Assembly (NCBI GenBank): GCA_002708825.1
Contig: PAPF01000019.1
Span: 1 to 64,000, forward strand
DNA length: 64,000 nucleotides
Reading direction: 5' to 3'
Origin: Phyllobacteriaceae bacterium
GTDB lineage: Bacteria > Pseudomonadota > Alphaproteobacteria > Rhizobiales > Rhizobiaceae
The notes beneath the pieces were generated by a model. It made no database searches. It had not been told where the DNA came from and saw nothing but the letters and a program-made list of their open reading frames with translations. This document shows positions 30,455 to 43,719 of this stretch, in pieces. The translations under genes were made by a program, and so were the position numbers. Every line of letters starts with the position of its first letter. The first letter of the stretch is position 1.

Positions 30455-31855
30455 ATGATCGCCGCCACCGCATTTGCAGGCAGGAATGTCGCCCTGTTCG
30501 GACTTGGCGGTTCGGGCGTTGCCACGGCACATGCCCTGCTTGCCGGCGGTGCGGCCGTGACCGGCTGGGATGACAATCCCGACAGTGTCGCAAAAGCCGC
30601 TGAATCGGGTATCGCGACAACCGACCTTCGGCAATCCGACTGGACCGGTTTCGATGCGCTGGTGCTCTCGCCCGGAGTGCCGCTGACCCATCCGAGGCCG
30701 CACTGGAGCGTCGATCTGGCGACCGCATCCGGCGTGCCGATCATCGGCGATGTCGAACTGTTCGTTCGCGAAAGGGCGAAACGCTCGCCGAGTGCGCCCT
30801 TCATTGCCGTCACTGGGACCAACGGAAAATCGACGACCACGGCGCTCATTGCGCACCTTGTTTCCTCTGCTGGCCGGGATACACAGATGGGGGGCAATAT
30901 CGGCCGGGCAGTGATGACCCTCGATCAGCCGGAACCGCAGCGGCACTATGTTGTTGAATGCTCTTCCTACCAGATCGACCTTGCGCCCTCGATCAACCCG
31001 TCCGCCGGTATCCTGCTCAACCTGACGCCGGACCATCTGGACCGCCATGGTTCGATGGAGCACTACGCGAGCATCAAGGAACGGCTGGTCGCGGGCAGCG
31101 ATACGGCCATTGTCGGTGTCGATGACGAATGGTGCGCCGCCATTGCCCGGCGTCTTGAATTGGCGGGCCGGCGTGTCGTGCCGATCTCGGTGACCCGGCA
31201 TCTGGGCGAAGGCATTTTCGCCGACGGCTCGGACCTGGTGCTTGCGCAGAATGGCCAGAACCGTGTGATCGCCTCGCTGGAGGGCATCGGCTCGTTGCGT
31301 GGACGCCACAATGCACAAAATGCGCTGGCGGCGGTTGCCGCCTGTCTCGTCGCCGGCTTGACGGAAGAGGACATCGTCAAGGGTCTGCGCAGCTTTCCCG
31401 GGCTTGCCCATCGCATGGAGCAGATCGGCCGCCTTGGCGACGTGCTGTTCATCAACGATTCCAAAGCCACGAACGCCGAAGCGGCAGCACCTGCACTGTC
31501 TTCCTTCGAGCGTATCCACTGGATTGCGGGCGGGTTGCCCAAGAGTGGCGGCATCGAACCACTCAGGCCTTTTTTCCCGAGGATCGCCAAGGCCTATCTG
31601 ATCGGCGAAGCGGCGGCAGCATTCGCCGCAACGATCGGCGATGCGGCACCATTCGAGATTTCCGGCGATCTTGCCTCGGCCGTCAGGCACGCCGCCAATG
31701 ATGCGCTGGCCGAAGGCGCGGGCGTTGTCCTCCTCTCGCCGGCTTGTGCCAGCTTCGACCAGTTCCGGAATTTCGAAATGCGCGGCGATGCGTTCCGCGA
31801 GGCCGTACTAGCATTGGGAAACGTAACCCGTATCGGGGGAGACAGCCATGGTTAG
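30455..31855 (+). CDS. murD: UDP-MurNAc-L-Ala:D-Glu ligase
   Basis: [84 protein letters not shown]. Confidence 0.97.
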
Positions 31856-36519: not shown

Positions 36520-38469
36520 ATGCACCAGACGCGGAGACCCGAGGCGGTGGCATTTTCCGGGTACATGCCATTCGTTGACGGGCTTCGCGCCCTGGCCGTG
36601 ATCGCCGTCGTTCTGAATCACGCCCACATGCCAGGGTTTTCAGGCGGGTTCTCCGGTGTTGACATCTTCTTCGTCATTTCCGGCTTTCTGATCATCGGGC
36701 AGATCAGGAGCGAAATCGCCAGCGGTGATTTCTCGATCCTGCGCTTCTATGCGCGCAGAACGCTGCGCATCCTGCCGGTCTTCTTCCTCGTGCTCGCATG
36801 TACCTTCCTGGCGGCGCCGTTTTTCCTCTTCATTCCGGATGCCTATGAGAGCTTTGCAAAGTCGGCCGTCGCCGCACCGCTGATGATCTCCAACATCCTG
36901 TTCTTCGTGGAGCAGGGTTATTTCGACACGGCCGCACAACTGAAGCCTCTGCTTCACACCTGGACGCTTTCGGTTGAAGAGCAGTTCTATCTGGTGGTTC
37001 CGGTGTTGCTGCTTGGCCTGGTCTGGCTGTACAGGCGCGGTTTCCGCCACGCCGAACCGGTCGCTGCCGTTGCCATCTTCGCCCTCTCGCTCCTGGCGTG
37101 CATCGTCTGGACTGATACCGGAGACCGCAATCCGGCCTTCTACCTGACGCCGTTCAGGGCATGGGAATTCGTTGCCGGGGGCCTGATCGTTCCCGCGGTC
37201 GCCCATCGGCTCGCGCGCCTGCCGGTCTTTGTACTGGAAGCATTGGCACTGGCGGGCATGGCGCTGATTGCCGTCGCAATCGCGGGCGTATCGGAAAACA
37301 GCACCTGGCCGGGATGGCTGGCGCTGCTGCCCGTCATCGGGACAAGTCTTGTCATCGCAGTCTCACTGGCCCGGCCCGACGTCGTGGTCGCCCGCCTGTT
37401 GTCGATGCGATTGCCGGTCGCGATCGGTCTTGTTTCCTACGGCTGGTATCTTTGGCACTGGCCTCTCCTCGCCTTCGGCCGCATGTCCCGGACGGAGCCC
37501 GGTCTCTCCATCGATCTGCTGCTTGGCGGCGTTGCCGGACTGGGTCTGGCGACTGTCAGTTACCTGCTGGTCGAAAAACCGGTTCGCCAGTGGCGCAAGC
37601 GCGCGAAACCCGAAAAGAACGCCGGGCGAATCTTTGCCAGCGGTTTTGCAGGAGTCTTCATGATGGCGGCGCTTGGCGGCGGGATCACCTATGCCGGGTA
37701 TCTGGCCAACGACCGTCATATCCGCAACCTCTATGCGACGGAAGGCGCCGGAACCCTAGACAATGGTTGCCGGGTCCGGACCGGGGATGCGGTCCCGGAG
37801 TATTGCGTTGCCGGCGACTACGTCCTGATCCTGGGGGATTCCCATGCCGACGCGCTTCAACCCGCCATGGCCAAGGTTGCCGGGGAACGCGGATTGAACG
37901 CGCTATCGCTTGCACGCGGCGGATGCCGCCTGTCGTGGTTCTCCCCGCAATCCATGCAGTCCGGCGACCTGCATCGCTGCTCCAACCTGGTGACCGCCTT
38001 GAAGGGCGTCATGGCGGGACCGAACCTGCCGCGCGCTGTTCTCATTACCTCCATCTTCCTGCCGGGAAGCGTACCGGACAAGGATGAGGCATCGGAGTTG
38101 GTAAGGCAATTTGCCGACGCCGGCGTGCGTGTCTTGCTGATCGGTCCGACACCGCGCTTCGATCAACCGGCTCTCGATTGTGTTCATGGCGCCGAGCGGA
38201 CCGGTGGCGACCGGCGGCGGTGCAGCGTGTCCCGCGCACAGACAGACGCCATGTTCAACGGGGTCGTGCCCCTGTTGCGCTCCGCTGCCGGACAGGTTGA
38301 GGACGCGCGGGCCATCGATATCCTTCCAGCCTTCTGTGATGACCAGGTCTGCCGACCGGACGCCAACGGCGTGCTGTTTTTCCGGGATCGCGATCACCTG
38401 TATCCGGCCGGGGTTCATCGCCTCGTCGAACTGTACCCGGACGATTTCGCCTGGGCACTTGGCCGATAA
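36520..38469 (+). CDS. Acyltransferase-3 fused to SGNH domain (OafA/OatA-like O-acyltransferase)
   Basis: AT3: YMPFVDGLRALAVIAVVLNHAHMPGFSGGFSGVDIFFVISGFLI, FYARRTLRILPVFF, WTLSVEEQFYLVVPV. SGNH: VLILGDSHADALQPAM and C-terminal DRDHLYPAGVHRL (DxxH). Starts 6 nt after the murB stop. Confidence 0.93.
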   Translation: MHQTRRPEAVAFSGYMPFVDGLRALAVIAVVLNHAHMPGFSGGFSGVDIFFVISGFLIIGQIRSEIASGDFSILRFYARRTLRILPVFFLVLACTFLAAPFFLFIPDAYESFAKSAVAAPLMISNILFFVEQGYFDTAAQLKPLLHTWTLSVEEQFYLVVPVLLLGLVWLYRRGFRHAEPVAAVAIFALSLLACIVWTDTGDRNPAFYLTPFRAWEFVAGGLIVPAVAHRLARLPVFVLEALALAGMALIAVAIAGVSENSTWPGWLALLPVIGTSLVIAVSLARPDVVVARLLSMRLPVAIGLVSYGWYLWHWPLLAFGRMSRTEPGLSIDLLLGGVAGLGLATVSYLLVEKPVRQWRKRAKPEKNAGRIFASGFAGVFMMAALGGGITYAGYLANDRHIRNLYATEGAGTLDNGCRVRTGDAVPEYCVAGDYVLILGDSHADALQPAMAKVAGERGLNALSLARGGCRLSWFSPQSMQSGDLHRCSNLVTALKGVMAGPNLPRAVLITSIFLPGSVPDKDEASELVRQFADAGVRVLLIGPTPRFDQPALDCVHGAERTGGDRRRCSVSRAQTDAMFNGVVPLLRSAAGQVEDARAIDILPAFCDDQVCRPDANGVLFFRDRDHLYPAGVHRLVELYPDDFAWALGR

Positions 38470-38522
38470 AGCGGTTCGGGCGCCAGCGCCTGAAGATATT
38501 TCCGGCAGGTTATCAAACGAGG

Positions 38523-38537
38523 TAAACGACCTGTTAA
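38523..38537. promoter_or_regulatory. CtrA-like half-consensus TAAA-N7-TTAA upstream of ddl
   Basis: TAAACGACCTGTTAA, one mismatch to TTAA-N7-TTAA. Confidence 0.3.
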
Positions 38538-38580
38538 CGGTCTGGGCTGCACCTTGATCCGAACGCAATGGCGTGGCTGC

Positions 38581-38659
38581 GATTCGGGTTTTTGCTCCAC
38601 GGGCTTGCCACGGAATCAACTCTCTGATTCCTTGGTGACAGGGGTTTCATCATTGAGTC
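38581..38659. promoter_or_regulatory. Cluster of four GANTC (CcrM-type) sites in the ddl upstream region
   Basis: GATTC 38581, GAATC 38613, GATTC 38626, GAGTC 38655; the middle two form a 28-bp dyad 38608-38635. Confidence 0.55.
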
Positions 38660-38746
38660 GCGTTGGCGCGCGTGTTGCGCGGCCGGGCACAGGGTCCGGC
38701 CGAGGGACTATTGCGTGCCGGACGCTGCGCGGAAGAGGGGTTTGTG

Positions 38747-39673
38747 ATGGCAAGGAAGCACGTGGCGGTGCTGATGGGCGGTTTCTCGTCCGAGCGTCCC
38801 GTCAGCCTGGCTTCGGGTAAGGCCTGCGCCGATGCGCTTGAGGCCGAGGGCTATCGCGTGTCCCGGATTGACGTTGACCGCAACGTCGCCATGGTGCTTG
38901 CGGACCTGAGTCCGGATGCCGTGTTCAATGCCCTGCATGGACCTTTCGGGGAAGACGGCACGATACAGGGCATCCTGGAATATCTGCAGATCCCCTATAC
39001 CCATTCCGGTGTTCTTGCCTCGGCCCTTGCCATGGACAAGGACAAGTCAAAGAAGCTCGCCAAGGTGGCGGGAATTCCGGTCGCCGAATCGAAGGTCATG
39101 AACCGGTTCGAGATCACGTCCGCGCATCCGATGAAGCCGCCCTACGTGGTCAAGCCGGTTGCCGAAGGTTCGAGTTTCGGCGTCGTCATCGTCAAGGAGG
39201 ATCAACCGCATCCGCCCCAGGTCATCACATCGGATGACTGGAAATATGGCGACCGCGTCATGGTGGAGCGGTTTGTGCATGGACGTGAACTGACCTGCAC
39301 CGTGATGGGTGATGTTGCGCTTGGCGTCACCGAGATCATCCCGGTGGGGCACCAGTTCTACGACTACGATTCAAAGTATGTCTCGGGCGGATCGAAGCAT
39401 GAATGCCCGGCGCGGCTTTCACCAAATATTTACCAAAAAATACAGACACTGGCGCTGAAGGCTCATCAGATTCTGGGATGCCGCGGCGTAACCCGATCCG
39501 ACTTCCGCTATGACGACCGCCATTCCGAAAACGGCGAACTGATCTGGCTGGAGGTCAATACGCAGCCCGGGATGACCGAAACATCGCTGGCGCCTGAACT
39601 GGCGCGGCATGCCGGTCACAGTTTCGGTGAGTTCGTGAGTTGGATGGTGGAGGACGCATCGTGCATGCGCTGA
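38747..39673 (+). CDS. ddl: D-alanine--D-alanine ligase
   Basis: [73 protein letters not shown]. Confidence 0.96.
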
Positions 39674-40578
39674 AGCGTGGAATCGCCGGGATTGCAGGGA
39701 CGGGGCGTGCCGATGCGCCCGAGCGGCTTGTATTGCCCCGCCTGCTGCGCCGGCCTGTCCGCCATGTTTCGAGGCTGATATCCGGCGAAGTGCATGTCCC
39801 GCGCCATGCCTTTGGCTTGATGGCCGCCGGATTCCTCGGCGCCTCGGCTGCCTATGGTTCGTGGCTTGGCGGTCACGTTCCGGCGATCGTCTCGGCGGTG
39901 GCTTCGGGAACCGGCTTCGCCATTTCGCAGGTCGACATTGCCGGCAACACCGAAACGTCCGAGATCGATGTCATGGGCGCGATCGGTCTGACCGGATGGA
40001 CGGCCTTGCCCGGATTTTCGCCGGAAGCCGCGCGCCAGCGAATCGCCGAACTGCCCTGGGTGCAGGAGGCGTCGGTGCAGAAGGTCTATCCGGGAACCCT
40101 CCAGGTGAAGGTTTCGGAACGTACGCCTTTCGCGCTCTGGCAGCAGGGGGATTCGGTTGCCGTGATCGAGCGCGACGGATCCGTTATCGCACCCTACAGG
40201 AATGACCGGTATGCCAGCCTCCCGCTGGTTGTCGGCCATGGTGCTGCACAGAAGGCAAGCATGTTCATCGCCGGCATGGAGCGCTTCCCTGTCATCGCGC
40301 AACGCGTTCGCGGCTATGTGCGCGTCGCCGACCGGCGCTGGGACCTGATCCTCGACAATGGTGTCACGATCAAGCTGCCGGAGCGCGGCGAGCTTGCAGC
40401 CGTGCAAAAAGTCGTGGAACTGCAACAAGGCGAGGGGCTCCTCGACAAGGATATCGTCAGCGTGGACATGCGGTTGGGCGAGCGCATCGCCATCAGGCTC
40501 AGCGCGGCTGCCGCGGAAGAACGCCGGGAGCGCATGGAGAAGCTGGTGAAGGACGAAGCGAAGCGGGGGCGGACATGA
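39640..40578 (+). CDS. ftsQ: Cell division protein FtsQ (start uncertain: ATG 39640 or GTG 39661)
   Basis: Single TM, POTRA-like [75 protein letters not shown]. Confidence 0.93.
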
Positions 40579-41894
40579 GCCTGCTTTCGGCAACTTCCTC
40601 TTCCTCCTCGCGCCGCACTGGCGTGGTCACCGTGCTCGATGTCGGCTCTTCGAAGATCTGCTGCATCATCGCGCGGCTCATGCCGCGGGATGAAGGCGAA
40701 CTGCTGCGTGGTCGTACCCACGACATCAGGGTGATCGGCATAGGTCATCACCGCTCGGAAGGTGTGAAGTCCGGCGTCATCACTGATCTCGACAGCGCCG
40801 AGCGGGCCATTCGCCATGCTGTCGATGCTGCCGAGAAGATGGCCGGCGTGATGGTCGAATCGCTCATCGTCAACATCTCGGCCGGCCGCCTCAAGAGCGA
40901 GATGTTCTCGGCAACTGTCAATTTGGGCGGCGAAGAAGCCGATGCCAATGACATTCACAAGGTTCTGGTCGCCGGTGCGAGGCAGGCGCAGGCGATCGAA
41001 CGCCAGGTCATCCATTCGCTGGCCACGGGCTATGCTCTGGACGGCGAACGCGGTATTCGCGACCCTCTCGGCATGATCGGCGATACGCTCGGCGTGGAAA
41101 TGCATGTCCTTTCTGCCGACGCGGCGCCACTTCGCAATCTCGAACTCGCAGTAAACCGGTGTCATCTCTCCGTGGAGCGCATGGTCGCCACGCCCTATGC
41201 CAGTGGACTTGCGGCGCTCGTTGACGACGAAACGGAAATGGGGGCCGCCTGCATCGATATCGGCGGCGGGACAATCACGATGTCCGTCTTTGCCAATGGT
41301 CGCTTCGTTCATGGCGATTCGCTGCCGATCGGCGGACGCCACATCACCATGGATCTCGCCCGCGGGCTTTCCACGCGGGTGGAAGCGGCAGAGCGCCTGA
41401 AGGCGATGCATGGATCCGCATTGCCGAGTGCGGCCGACGACCGCGACGTCGTGACGATTCCCTCGATCGACGACGACGGCGGTGATCGGGATGAAGGCCA
41501 GCAAATCCCGCGCGCCATCATGACGCGCATCATCCGCGCCCGTACCGAAGAGATGCTCGAACATGTCCGCGACCGGATGAATGCATCCGGTTTCGGCGCT
41601 GTGGTCGGGCGCCGTGTCGTGCTGACGGGCGGCGGTGCCCAACTCAACGGGCTACCGGAAGTCGCCCGTCGGATTCTGGGACGAAATGTGCGTGTCGGAC
41701 GGCCGCTCGGTGTGGCGGGTTTGCCGCCGGCGGCCAAGGGTCCGGCATTTTCAACCGCAGTCGGCCTGATGATCTATCCGCAGGTGGCAGGGCTGGAGAC
41801 CAGTGTCATGAAGCATTCGAGATGGAGCAGAAGGCTGACGGGAACCGGCGGACGGCTCAGCCGTGTGGGGCAATGGCTGAGAGACAATCTTTGA
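40575..41894 (+). CDS. ftsA: Cell division protein FtsA
   Basis: VVTVLDVGSSKICCIIARL, IDIGGGTITMSVFANGRFVHGDSLPIGGRHITMDLARGL, VLTGGGAQLNGLPEVARRIL. Confidence 0.96.
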   Translation: MSLLSATSSSSSRRTGVVTVLDVGSSKICCIIARLMPRDEGELLRGRTHDIRVIGIGHHRSEGVKSGVITDLDSAERAIRHAVDAAEKMAGVMVESLIVNISAGRLKSEMFSATVNLGGEEADANDIHKVLVAGARQAQAIERQVIHSLATGYALDGERGIRDPLGMIGDTLGVEMHVLSADAAPLRNLELAVNRCHLSVERMVATPYASGLAALVDDETEMGAACIDIGGGTITMSVFANGRFVHGDSLPIGGRHITMDLARGLSTRVEAAERLKAMHGSALPSAADDRDVVTIPSIDDDGGDRDEGQQIPRAIMTRIIRARTEEMLEHVRDRMNASGFGAVVGRRVVLTGGGAQLNGLPEVARRILGRNVRVGRPLGVAGLPPAAKGPAFSTAVGLMIYPQVAGLETSVMKHSRWSRRLTGTGGRLSRVGQWLRDNL

Positions 41895-41979: not shown

Positions 41980-43719
41980 ATGAGCATCAACCTTCAAAAA
42001 CCCGACATCACAGAACTGAAGCCCCGCATCACCGTCTTCGGTGTTGGCGGCGGGGGCGGAAACGCGGTCAACAACATGATCACGGCCGGATTGCGCGGCG
42101 TGGAATTCGTCGTGGCGAATACCGATGCGCAGGCACTGACAATGTCCAAGGCGGAGCGCCTGATTCAGCTCGGCGCCCATGTGACAGAAGGTCTGGGCGC
42201 CGGTTCCCAGCCCGAAGTCGGGCGCGCTGCGGCCGAGGAATGCATCGACGAGATCGTCGATCATCTTTCCAACACGCACATGTGCTTCGTCACCGCGGGC
42301 ATGGGCGGGGGCACCGGAACGGGCGCCGCGCCGGTCGTTGCCCAGGCTGCCCGCGAGAAGGGCATCCTCACTGTGGGTGTCGTCACCAAGCCTTTCCATT
42401 TCGAGGGCCAGCGGCGGATGCGGCTTGCAGACAGTGGAATCGAGGAACTGCAGAAGTGCGTCGATACACTGATCGTCATTCCGAACCAGAATCTTTTCCG
42501 GATCGCGAACGAGAAGACCACGTTTGCCGACGCGTTCGCCATGGCCGACCAGGTGCTCTATTCGGGCGTTGCCTGCATCACCGACCTGATGGTCAAGGAA
42601 GGCCTGATCAACCTCGATTTCGCCGACGTTCGCTCCGTCATGCGCGAGATGGGCAAGGCCATGATGGGCACGGGCGAGGCTTCCGGCGAAGGACGCGCCA
42701 TGGCTGCGGCCGAAGCAGCCATTGCCAATCCGCTGCTCGACGAATCCTCGATGAAGGGGGCCCAAGGCCTGCTCATCTCGATCACAGGCGGTCGGGACCT
42801 GACGCTCTACGAGGTCGATGAAGCGGCAACACGTATCCGTGAAGAAGTCGACCAGGATGCCAACATCATCCTCGGCGCCACGTTCGACGAGGAACTGGAA
42901 GGCGTGATCCGCGTTTCGGTGGTCGCCACGGGCATCGAAAACACGGCCGGGATCGCGAAGGCAGTGACAGCCGAAGCGCGCACGGTTTCGCGGCCGGTGC
43001 AACAGCCCGCGGCAGCCGCGCCGGCACAGGCCCCGATGGCGCCTTCGCAGCCGCAGGTCCGTCAGCAGACCGCAGCGCCCCAGCAGCCGCAGCAGCCCGT
43101 CCGGCAGGCGCCGGCGGATCCGGTGGCGGCAGCCATTGCGCGCGCCGAATCAGAGTTCCAGGTTCAGCCCGAGCCGGATGAATTCCGGCCTGCCAGCCGT
43201 CTGTTCCAAGGACAGCCCGAGTTGCAGGGGGTCACGCCCAAGCAGCCGTCACAGCCGGCACCTGCCGAGCTGCCGCGCGAAACAGTTGCCGAGCATCCTT
43301 CTGTCGCTCCCGCTGTTCAGCCTGCATCGGCTGCCGCAACGCCGCGGATGCCGAGGGTTGAGGATTTTCCGCCTGTTGCGCGCGCCGAGATTTCTGCCCG
43401 CGACAACAACCATGCGACCGTGGACCATGAGGAGCGCGGCCCCATGGGATTGCTGAAGCGCCTCACCAATGGCCTGTCACGCCGGGAAGACGAACCTTCC
43501 GCTTCGCTCAAGCCGGCAGCGGAAGCAAGCGGTCCCCGCGAGCCCCAGCTTCGGCAGGCCGCCCCGGAAATGCGCCGGACTGCGCAACAGGACAGCCAGC
43601 TTTACGCGCCTCGCCGCGGTCAGCTGGACGGGAACGGGCGTGTCATGCCGACCGGCCCGTCCGCACAGGATGACGATCGGCTCGAGATTCCCGCCTTCCT
43701 TCGCCGGCAGGCGAACTGA
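41980..43719 (+). CDS. ftsZ: Cell division GTPase FtsZ with long disordered linker and C-terminal [10 protein letters not shown] peptide
   Basis: [31 protein letters not shown] (tubulin signature), C-terminal [16 protein letters not shown]. Confidence 0.98.

Follow-up and report, generated by a model that had tools for sequence, protein, structure and literature searches.

The window analyzed in this study is a 64,000-nucleotide stretch of DNA whose forward strand carries ddl (D-alanine--D-alanine ligase, 38747–39673; NCBIfam NF002378, 4e-121), ftsQ (39664–40578, overlapping ddl; NF008043, 6e-12), ftsA (40575–41894, overlapping ftsQ; TIGR01174, 1e-101), and ftsZ (41980–43719; TIGR00065, 5e-122, and TIGR03483). 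Considering that ddl, ftsQ, and ftsA overlap, that ftsZ begins only 85 bp past ftsA, and that no terminator-like site other than one within ftsQ was detected on the forward strand of ddl-ftsQ-ftsA-ftsZ, these genes likely form a single operon in which ftsZ would be cotranscribed with ddl. Upstream of ddl lies a 277-bp gap (38470–38746, forward strand), which extends from the stop codon of an acyltransferase gene (38469) to the ATG of ddl (38747) and is the predicted regulatory region of these four genes. Named hits placed the genome in the Rhizobiaceae sensu lato, the closest named Ddl being that of Aliihoeflea (85%). Both CcrM and GcrA are encoded: the former (L032:1384–2517) matches PDB 6pbd with an E value of 3.5e-162 and the NCBIfam CcrM model with 2.6e-191, yet below that model's cutoff, and the latter matches PF07750 (E = 9e-60).

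The acyltransferase gene (36520–38469), located between murB and ddl, encodes an OafA-like protein with a fused SGNH domain (PF01757 and PF19040). Among approximately 105 loci compared, an acyltransferase was found at this position only in the window and in a congener (G001, locus L003). These two acyltransferases are 56% identical, compared with 91% for the Ddl proteins of the same genomes, which suggests that this is a fast-evolving surface-modification gene.

The preliminary description had reported four GANTC sites in the gap at 38581, 38613, 38626, and 38655, and both letters and coordinates proved exact. All four are given here on the forward strand. Site 1 (GATTC, 38581–38585) reads CGATTCG with its flanks and fully matches YGAKTCK. 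Site 2 (GAATC, 38613–38617; GGAATCA) lies 13 bp upstream of site 3 (GATTC, 38626–38630), which is part of a core AACTCTCT-GATTC (38618–38630) and matches six of the seven letters of YGAKTCK. Site 4 (GAGTC, 38655–38659; TGAGTCG), 29 bp from site 3, is another full match to this GcrA consensus. They precede the ddl ATG by 166, 134, 121, and 92 bp, respectively. No GANTC is wholly contained in the 85-bp ftsA–ftsZ gap; one at 41893 overlaps the end of ftsA.

The window is poor in GANTC, with 118 occurrences (1.84/kb) where dinucleotide shuffles predict 339, and four sites in 79 bp are therefore far from chance. When the gap was dinucleotide-shuffled 5,000 times, 0.02% of the shuffles reached this density; the gap holds the tightest three-site and four-site clusters of the window. 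To place these values in the background of the genome, 2.45 of 4.70 Mb (52%) was sampled as 20-kb stretches from 40 contigs, in which 2,188 genes were called with our own simple codon model (some starts are off, e.g., ddl at 38762, and the result is unaffected). The GANTC rate was 1.39/kb overall, 2.11/kb in intergenic and 1.29/kb in coding DNA, in agreement with published Rhizobiales values. Four sites within 79 bp or less were found at two places in the 2.45 Mb, the ddl gap and a spot on contig C36. When 1,343 intergenic regions were compared, the ddl gap alone had four GANTC in 80 bp, and eight regions had three, so that such clusters are not equally common elsewhere, an outcome that the preliminary description had named as refuting its inference. 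Regardless of spacing, at least four sites were found in 28 of these regions, mostly long ones, and in 3 of the 219 regions of 200–350 bp; ranked by Poisson probability of its site number per length at the intergenic rate, the ddl gap was sixth (P = 3.6e-3). What is exceptional about this gap is the density and tight spacing of its sites, together with their conservation, and not the count per region.

Several other GANTC-rich spots were observed in this genome. Five sites are present in a 241-bp divergent promoter between genes for a 3-methyladenine glycosylase (PF03352) and an L,D-transpeptidase (PF03734) (contig C33, 4598–4700); these DNA repair and cell-wall genes are plausible further GcrA targets. 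Contig C5 has three sites in 30 bp (31078–31107) ahead of a gene beside pepN for a membrane histidine kinase with a PAS domain, which may be PleC-like, and three in 32 bp before a probable nagZ (419643). Another five separate a pair of small genes, of which the one downstream encodes a YbjN-domain protein (PF10722) (contig C29, 62117–62240). Contig C36 has 41% GC in a genome of 62–66% GC and 6.3 GANTC/kb; it looks like a foreign element or a contaminating contig (the assembly lists 2.69% contamination).

The distribution of GANTC upstream of ddl was then compared in relatives, using the 250 bp before the gene. In 72 dereplicated Rhizobiaceae s.l. loci, the rate was 11.67/kb, versus 1.58/kb in ddl and downstream DNA, a 7.4-fold enrichment; seven control palindromes of the same make-up gave 0.8- to 1.9-fold. 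At least three sites were present in half of these loci (36 of 72). The enrichment was absent in nine loci from other families of the order (0.88-fold, none with three or more sites). Mesorhizobium relatives have up to eight sites in the 250 bp, the extra ones being at further places. The cluster is missing in many species of the Rhizobium branch, with 16 changes on the Ddl tree, indicating that ddl can be expressed without it.

A common layout, cTTGcca-N3-GAnTC-AACTCTCT-GATTC, followed by another GANTC 28–32 bp downstream (in 45 of 47), was found in 47 loci, which come from both of the lineages separated by the deepest split in the Ddl tree. The expectation that the sites are kept in close relatives was thus confirmed, with fixed spacing. 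Because the 47 loci were picked by TTG/TTT at −21 and TYTGATTC, conservation of those letters was built into the set; no selection was made for CAA, for the first C of CTCT, or for the GANTC upstream or downstream of site 3. The TTG/TTT element, 21 bp upstream of site 3, is preceded by C in 40 of 47 loci and corresponds in the window to CTTGCCA (38604–38610, forward strand), a predicted −35 element. CTTGCCA resembles the rhizobial −35 sequence CTTGAC. Site 2 is a GANTC in 28 of the 47 loci, with A, T, or G as the middle base. An exact match to CTTG-N14-CTCTGATTC occurs once genome-wide, in the ddl gap, and the idea that the same promoter is used elsewhere in the genome was rejected on this basis. 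A consensus scan of the gap revealed neither a canonical sigma-70 promoter nor a good −10, and a LexA operator (GTTC-N7-GTTC) is absent from both of its strands. In the core (38617–38625 of the window), the CAA and CTCT letters are conserved in 42–47 of the 47 loci; neither GANTC nor a standard −10 explains them, and an additional protein contact is possible.

Among the 45 copies of site 4, the position varies by up to 4 bp, and G (26), T (18), or A (1) stands in the middle; with flanks, the site reads TGAGTCG (26), TGATTCG (16), TGATTCT (2), or CGAATCA (1), i.e., TGAKTCG in 42 and TGAKTCK in 44 copies. With one exception, changes of the middle base stay within the G or T permitted by YGAKTCK. 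Selection has kept the GANTC letters and a YGAKTCK-type site at this place, and because G, A, T, and C are retained while N drifts at a roughly fixed distance, the likely target of selection is the methylation site itself. The share of YGAKTCK among GANTC sites upstream of ddl (89/208) is higher than in the window genome (753/3277, P = 1e-9) and is not raised relative to the sites that these loci have in ddl and the DNA following it (152/359); hence the fixed site 4, rather than the whole region, speaks for the extended motif.

A reasonable hypothesis, which we consider quite probable, is that the gap is the promoter region of a ddl-ftsQ-ftsA-ftsZ operon, laid out such that CcrM methylation is read via GcrA; that the promoter responds to DNA methylation and GcrA appears very likely from the sequence comparison. 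As a prediction, the cell-cycle, methylation-responsive promoter put forward in the preliminary description is well supported by rarity, conservation, the presence of CcrM and GcrA, and the YGAKTCK form of site 4. From these features, we infer the promoter position, its methylation, the binding of GcrA and CtrA, and the timing as follows. RNA polymerase with the housekeeping sigma factor would recognize CTTGCCA as the −35, and the poor −10 would leave the promoter in need of help, which suits dependence on an activator. GcrA, carried on sigma-70, would dock at methylated GANTC. With a spacer of 17–18 nt, sites 2 and 3 (38613 and 38626) would lie inside or at the edge of the −35/−10 spacer, and site 4 (38655) just after the start, some three helical turns (about 30 bp) beyond them. 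When the replication fork passes, the sites would become hemimethylated until CcrM remethylates them late in the cycle, and transcription of peptidoglycan-precursor and divisome genes would thereby be tied to replication of the ddl locus. A CtrA-like box further upstream may provide a second cell-cycle input in the genus of the window.

This putative promoter would extend the known CcrM/GcrA biology of division promoters, acting at ddl instead of ftsZ, and is no new kind of system. In Caulobacter crescentus, the ftsZ and mipZ promoters are activated by CcrM methylation (PMC3973325), and CcrM is needed for fast growth because methylation activates ftsZ. The ddl gap resembles them in having conserved GANTC in the predicted promoter of essential division genes, with GcrA predicted as the reader. 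In contrast to them, its cluster lies at ddl, the head of ddl-ftsQAZ, whereas the ftsA–ftsZ gap has none, and it comprises four sites (up to eight in relatives) at fixed spacing. The motif published for Caulobacter GcrA is TGATTCG, with YGAKTCK as its broader form (PMC7987155), and GcrA of B. subvibrioides lacks a preference for an extended motif (PMC3667746, PMC7987155). The full matches at sites 1 and 4 and the near match at site 3 are shared with GcrA-sigma-70 promoters (PMC3667746, PMC7987155); at the ddl gap, GcrA binding is a prediction. A GANTC between −35 and −10 accompanies activation at 40–60 min of the Caulobacter cycle (PMC4287350), and as in Caulobacter ctrA P1, with GANTC at about −29 (PMC4287350), a GANTC would lie near −29 of the predicted −35/−10 promoter. 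The CtrA-controlled ftsQ promoter of Caulobacter (PMC4287350) offers a parallel for candidate CtrA control of a division gene; the CtrA-like box of the window differs in lying upstream of the GANTC promoter and in having one mismatch. Within the Rhizobiaceae, the Agrobacterium ori2 repABC promoter also has multiple (three) GANTC, which were studied by mutation (PMC11514494), although it serves replicon maintenance rather than cell division. In Brucella, GcrA ChIP peaks are 4.4- to 4.7-fold rich in GANTC (PMC6813329; data set GSE136733), and on the promoter model proposed here GcrA contact would be expected over CTTGTCACGGAATCAATCCTCTGATTC upstream of ddl. Our search of openly accessible papers found none joining GANTC with ddl, which does not prove novelty.

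The CtrA-like box, TAAACGACCTGTTAA (38523–38537, forward strand), reads TAAA-N7-TTAA, with one mismatch to TTAA-N7-TTAA. It is the counterpart of a near-constant TAAACGCTTCATTAACCAT before ddl in the Rhizobium/Agrobacterium/Ensifer branch, where it lies at about −120 from ddl, compared with −224 in the genus of the window. TAAAC-N6-TTAA occurs six times in 2.43 Mb of the window genome. In the Rhizobium/Agrobacterium branch, the box is constant and the GANTC cluster is often lost; 96 loci comprised 31 with GANTC (at least three) only, 30 with the box only, 23 with both, and 12 with neither. A mutual exclusion of cluster and box, to which these raw counts would point, was considered and rejected: on the Ddl tree the GANTC core changes 14 times and the box 3 times, and independent pairs give no support. 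Judging from this quick single-gene tree, whose many open forks allow a coarse statement only, the pattern is a branch-level event and not a repeated trade-off.

Other readings of the gap were also weighed. A chance cluster without function might be entertained, considering that GANTC is short and that intergenic DNA is richer in it (2.11/kb), but it is hardly credible when none of the other 1,343 intergenic regions sampled has such a cluster and relatives throughout the family retain it; the comparative data already refute it. An ordinary constitutive promoter accompanied by the site of another factor is a more serious possibility, in which some GANTC would be carried inside that factor's motif, e.g., the dyad GAATCA-N6-TGATTC (38613–38630) or CAACTCTCTGATTC. 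Sites 2 and 3 do form an inverted repeat in the window genome, and TTG, CAA, and CTCT are as well conserved as GATTC. However, 19 of the 47 loci lack the upstream arm, and where it is present its middle base can vary (A, T, or G), which breaks the dyad and keeps GANTC, and the dyad was rejected as a repressor site for this reason. In addition, site 4 is outside the block, shifts and varies while remaining GANTC in 45 of 47, and Mesorhizobium relatives have extra sites elsewhere. We regard this explanation as unlikely.

It is equally doubtful that the main input is CtrA, or another OmpR-type regulator, acting via TAAAC-N6-TTAA, with the GANTC sites as fine-tuning elements or relics. The near constancy of the box at its two positions, its rarity in the genome, and the CtrA control of Caulobacter ftsQA would fit such a role, but outside that branch the GANTC architecture without the box prevails in the family (the 31 GANTC-only loci of 96), and CtrA of S. 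meliloti is said to act on division via minCD and not ftsQA (PMC4433202). NtrX or CenR, both of which have ChIP peaks upstream of ddlA in Rhodobacter sphaeroides (PMC7240162, PMC9275681), could be the real regulator as at the ddlA-ftsA promoter of that organism, and one TGA-N8-TGA is present at 38625. On the other hand, the gap lacks the NtrX repeat GCA-N9-TGC, so that an NtrX operator was rejected there, and the repeat occurs in only 15 of 96 family loci; as neither motif predicts GANTC conservation, this reading is very improbable. Against the methylation-responsive promoter that we favor counts the finding that S. meliloti cell-cycle promoters overall are not GANTC-enriched, as does the small response of Agrobacterium ftsZ to CcrM depletion.

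CcrM depletion in Agrobacterium hardly changed ftsZ (PMC11514494). This weak response, in a branch where the cluster is mostly reduced, fits the idea of a GANTC promoter but does not test it. One tentative scenario, which we regard as possible rather than probable, is that the common ancestor of Mesorhizobium, Brucella, Rhizobium, and the other Rhizobiaceae s.l. had its divisome operon under a multisite CcrM/GcrA promoter before ddl. On the side of Mesorhizobium, this promoter might have been kept or expanded to as many as eight GANTC; in Rhizobium/Agrobacterium, it might have been rewired so that a constant CtrA box took over, with intermediates (the genus of the window and some Rhizobium) having both inputs. 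If true, such rewiring would help explain the weak ftsZ response in Agrobacterium. The family also provides a natural series, from GANTC only through both to the CtrA box only, in which a change of the regulator in charge of a division promoter can be studied. A deeply conserved GANTC/GcrA-type promoter heading ddl-ftsQAZ in Mesorhizobium, Brucella-like, and related genera offers a specific, testable target for studies of how methylation is linked to division in Rhizobiales.

In a contig labeled as a Sphingomonadaceae MAG (L056), the Rhizobiaceae-type ddl promoter core was found twice (−289 and −134), together with a Rhizobiaceae-like Ddl; this is a duplicated promoter in a probably mislabeled bin.
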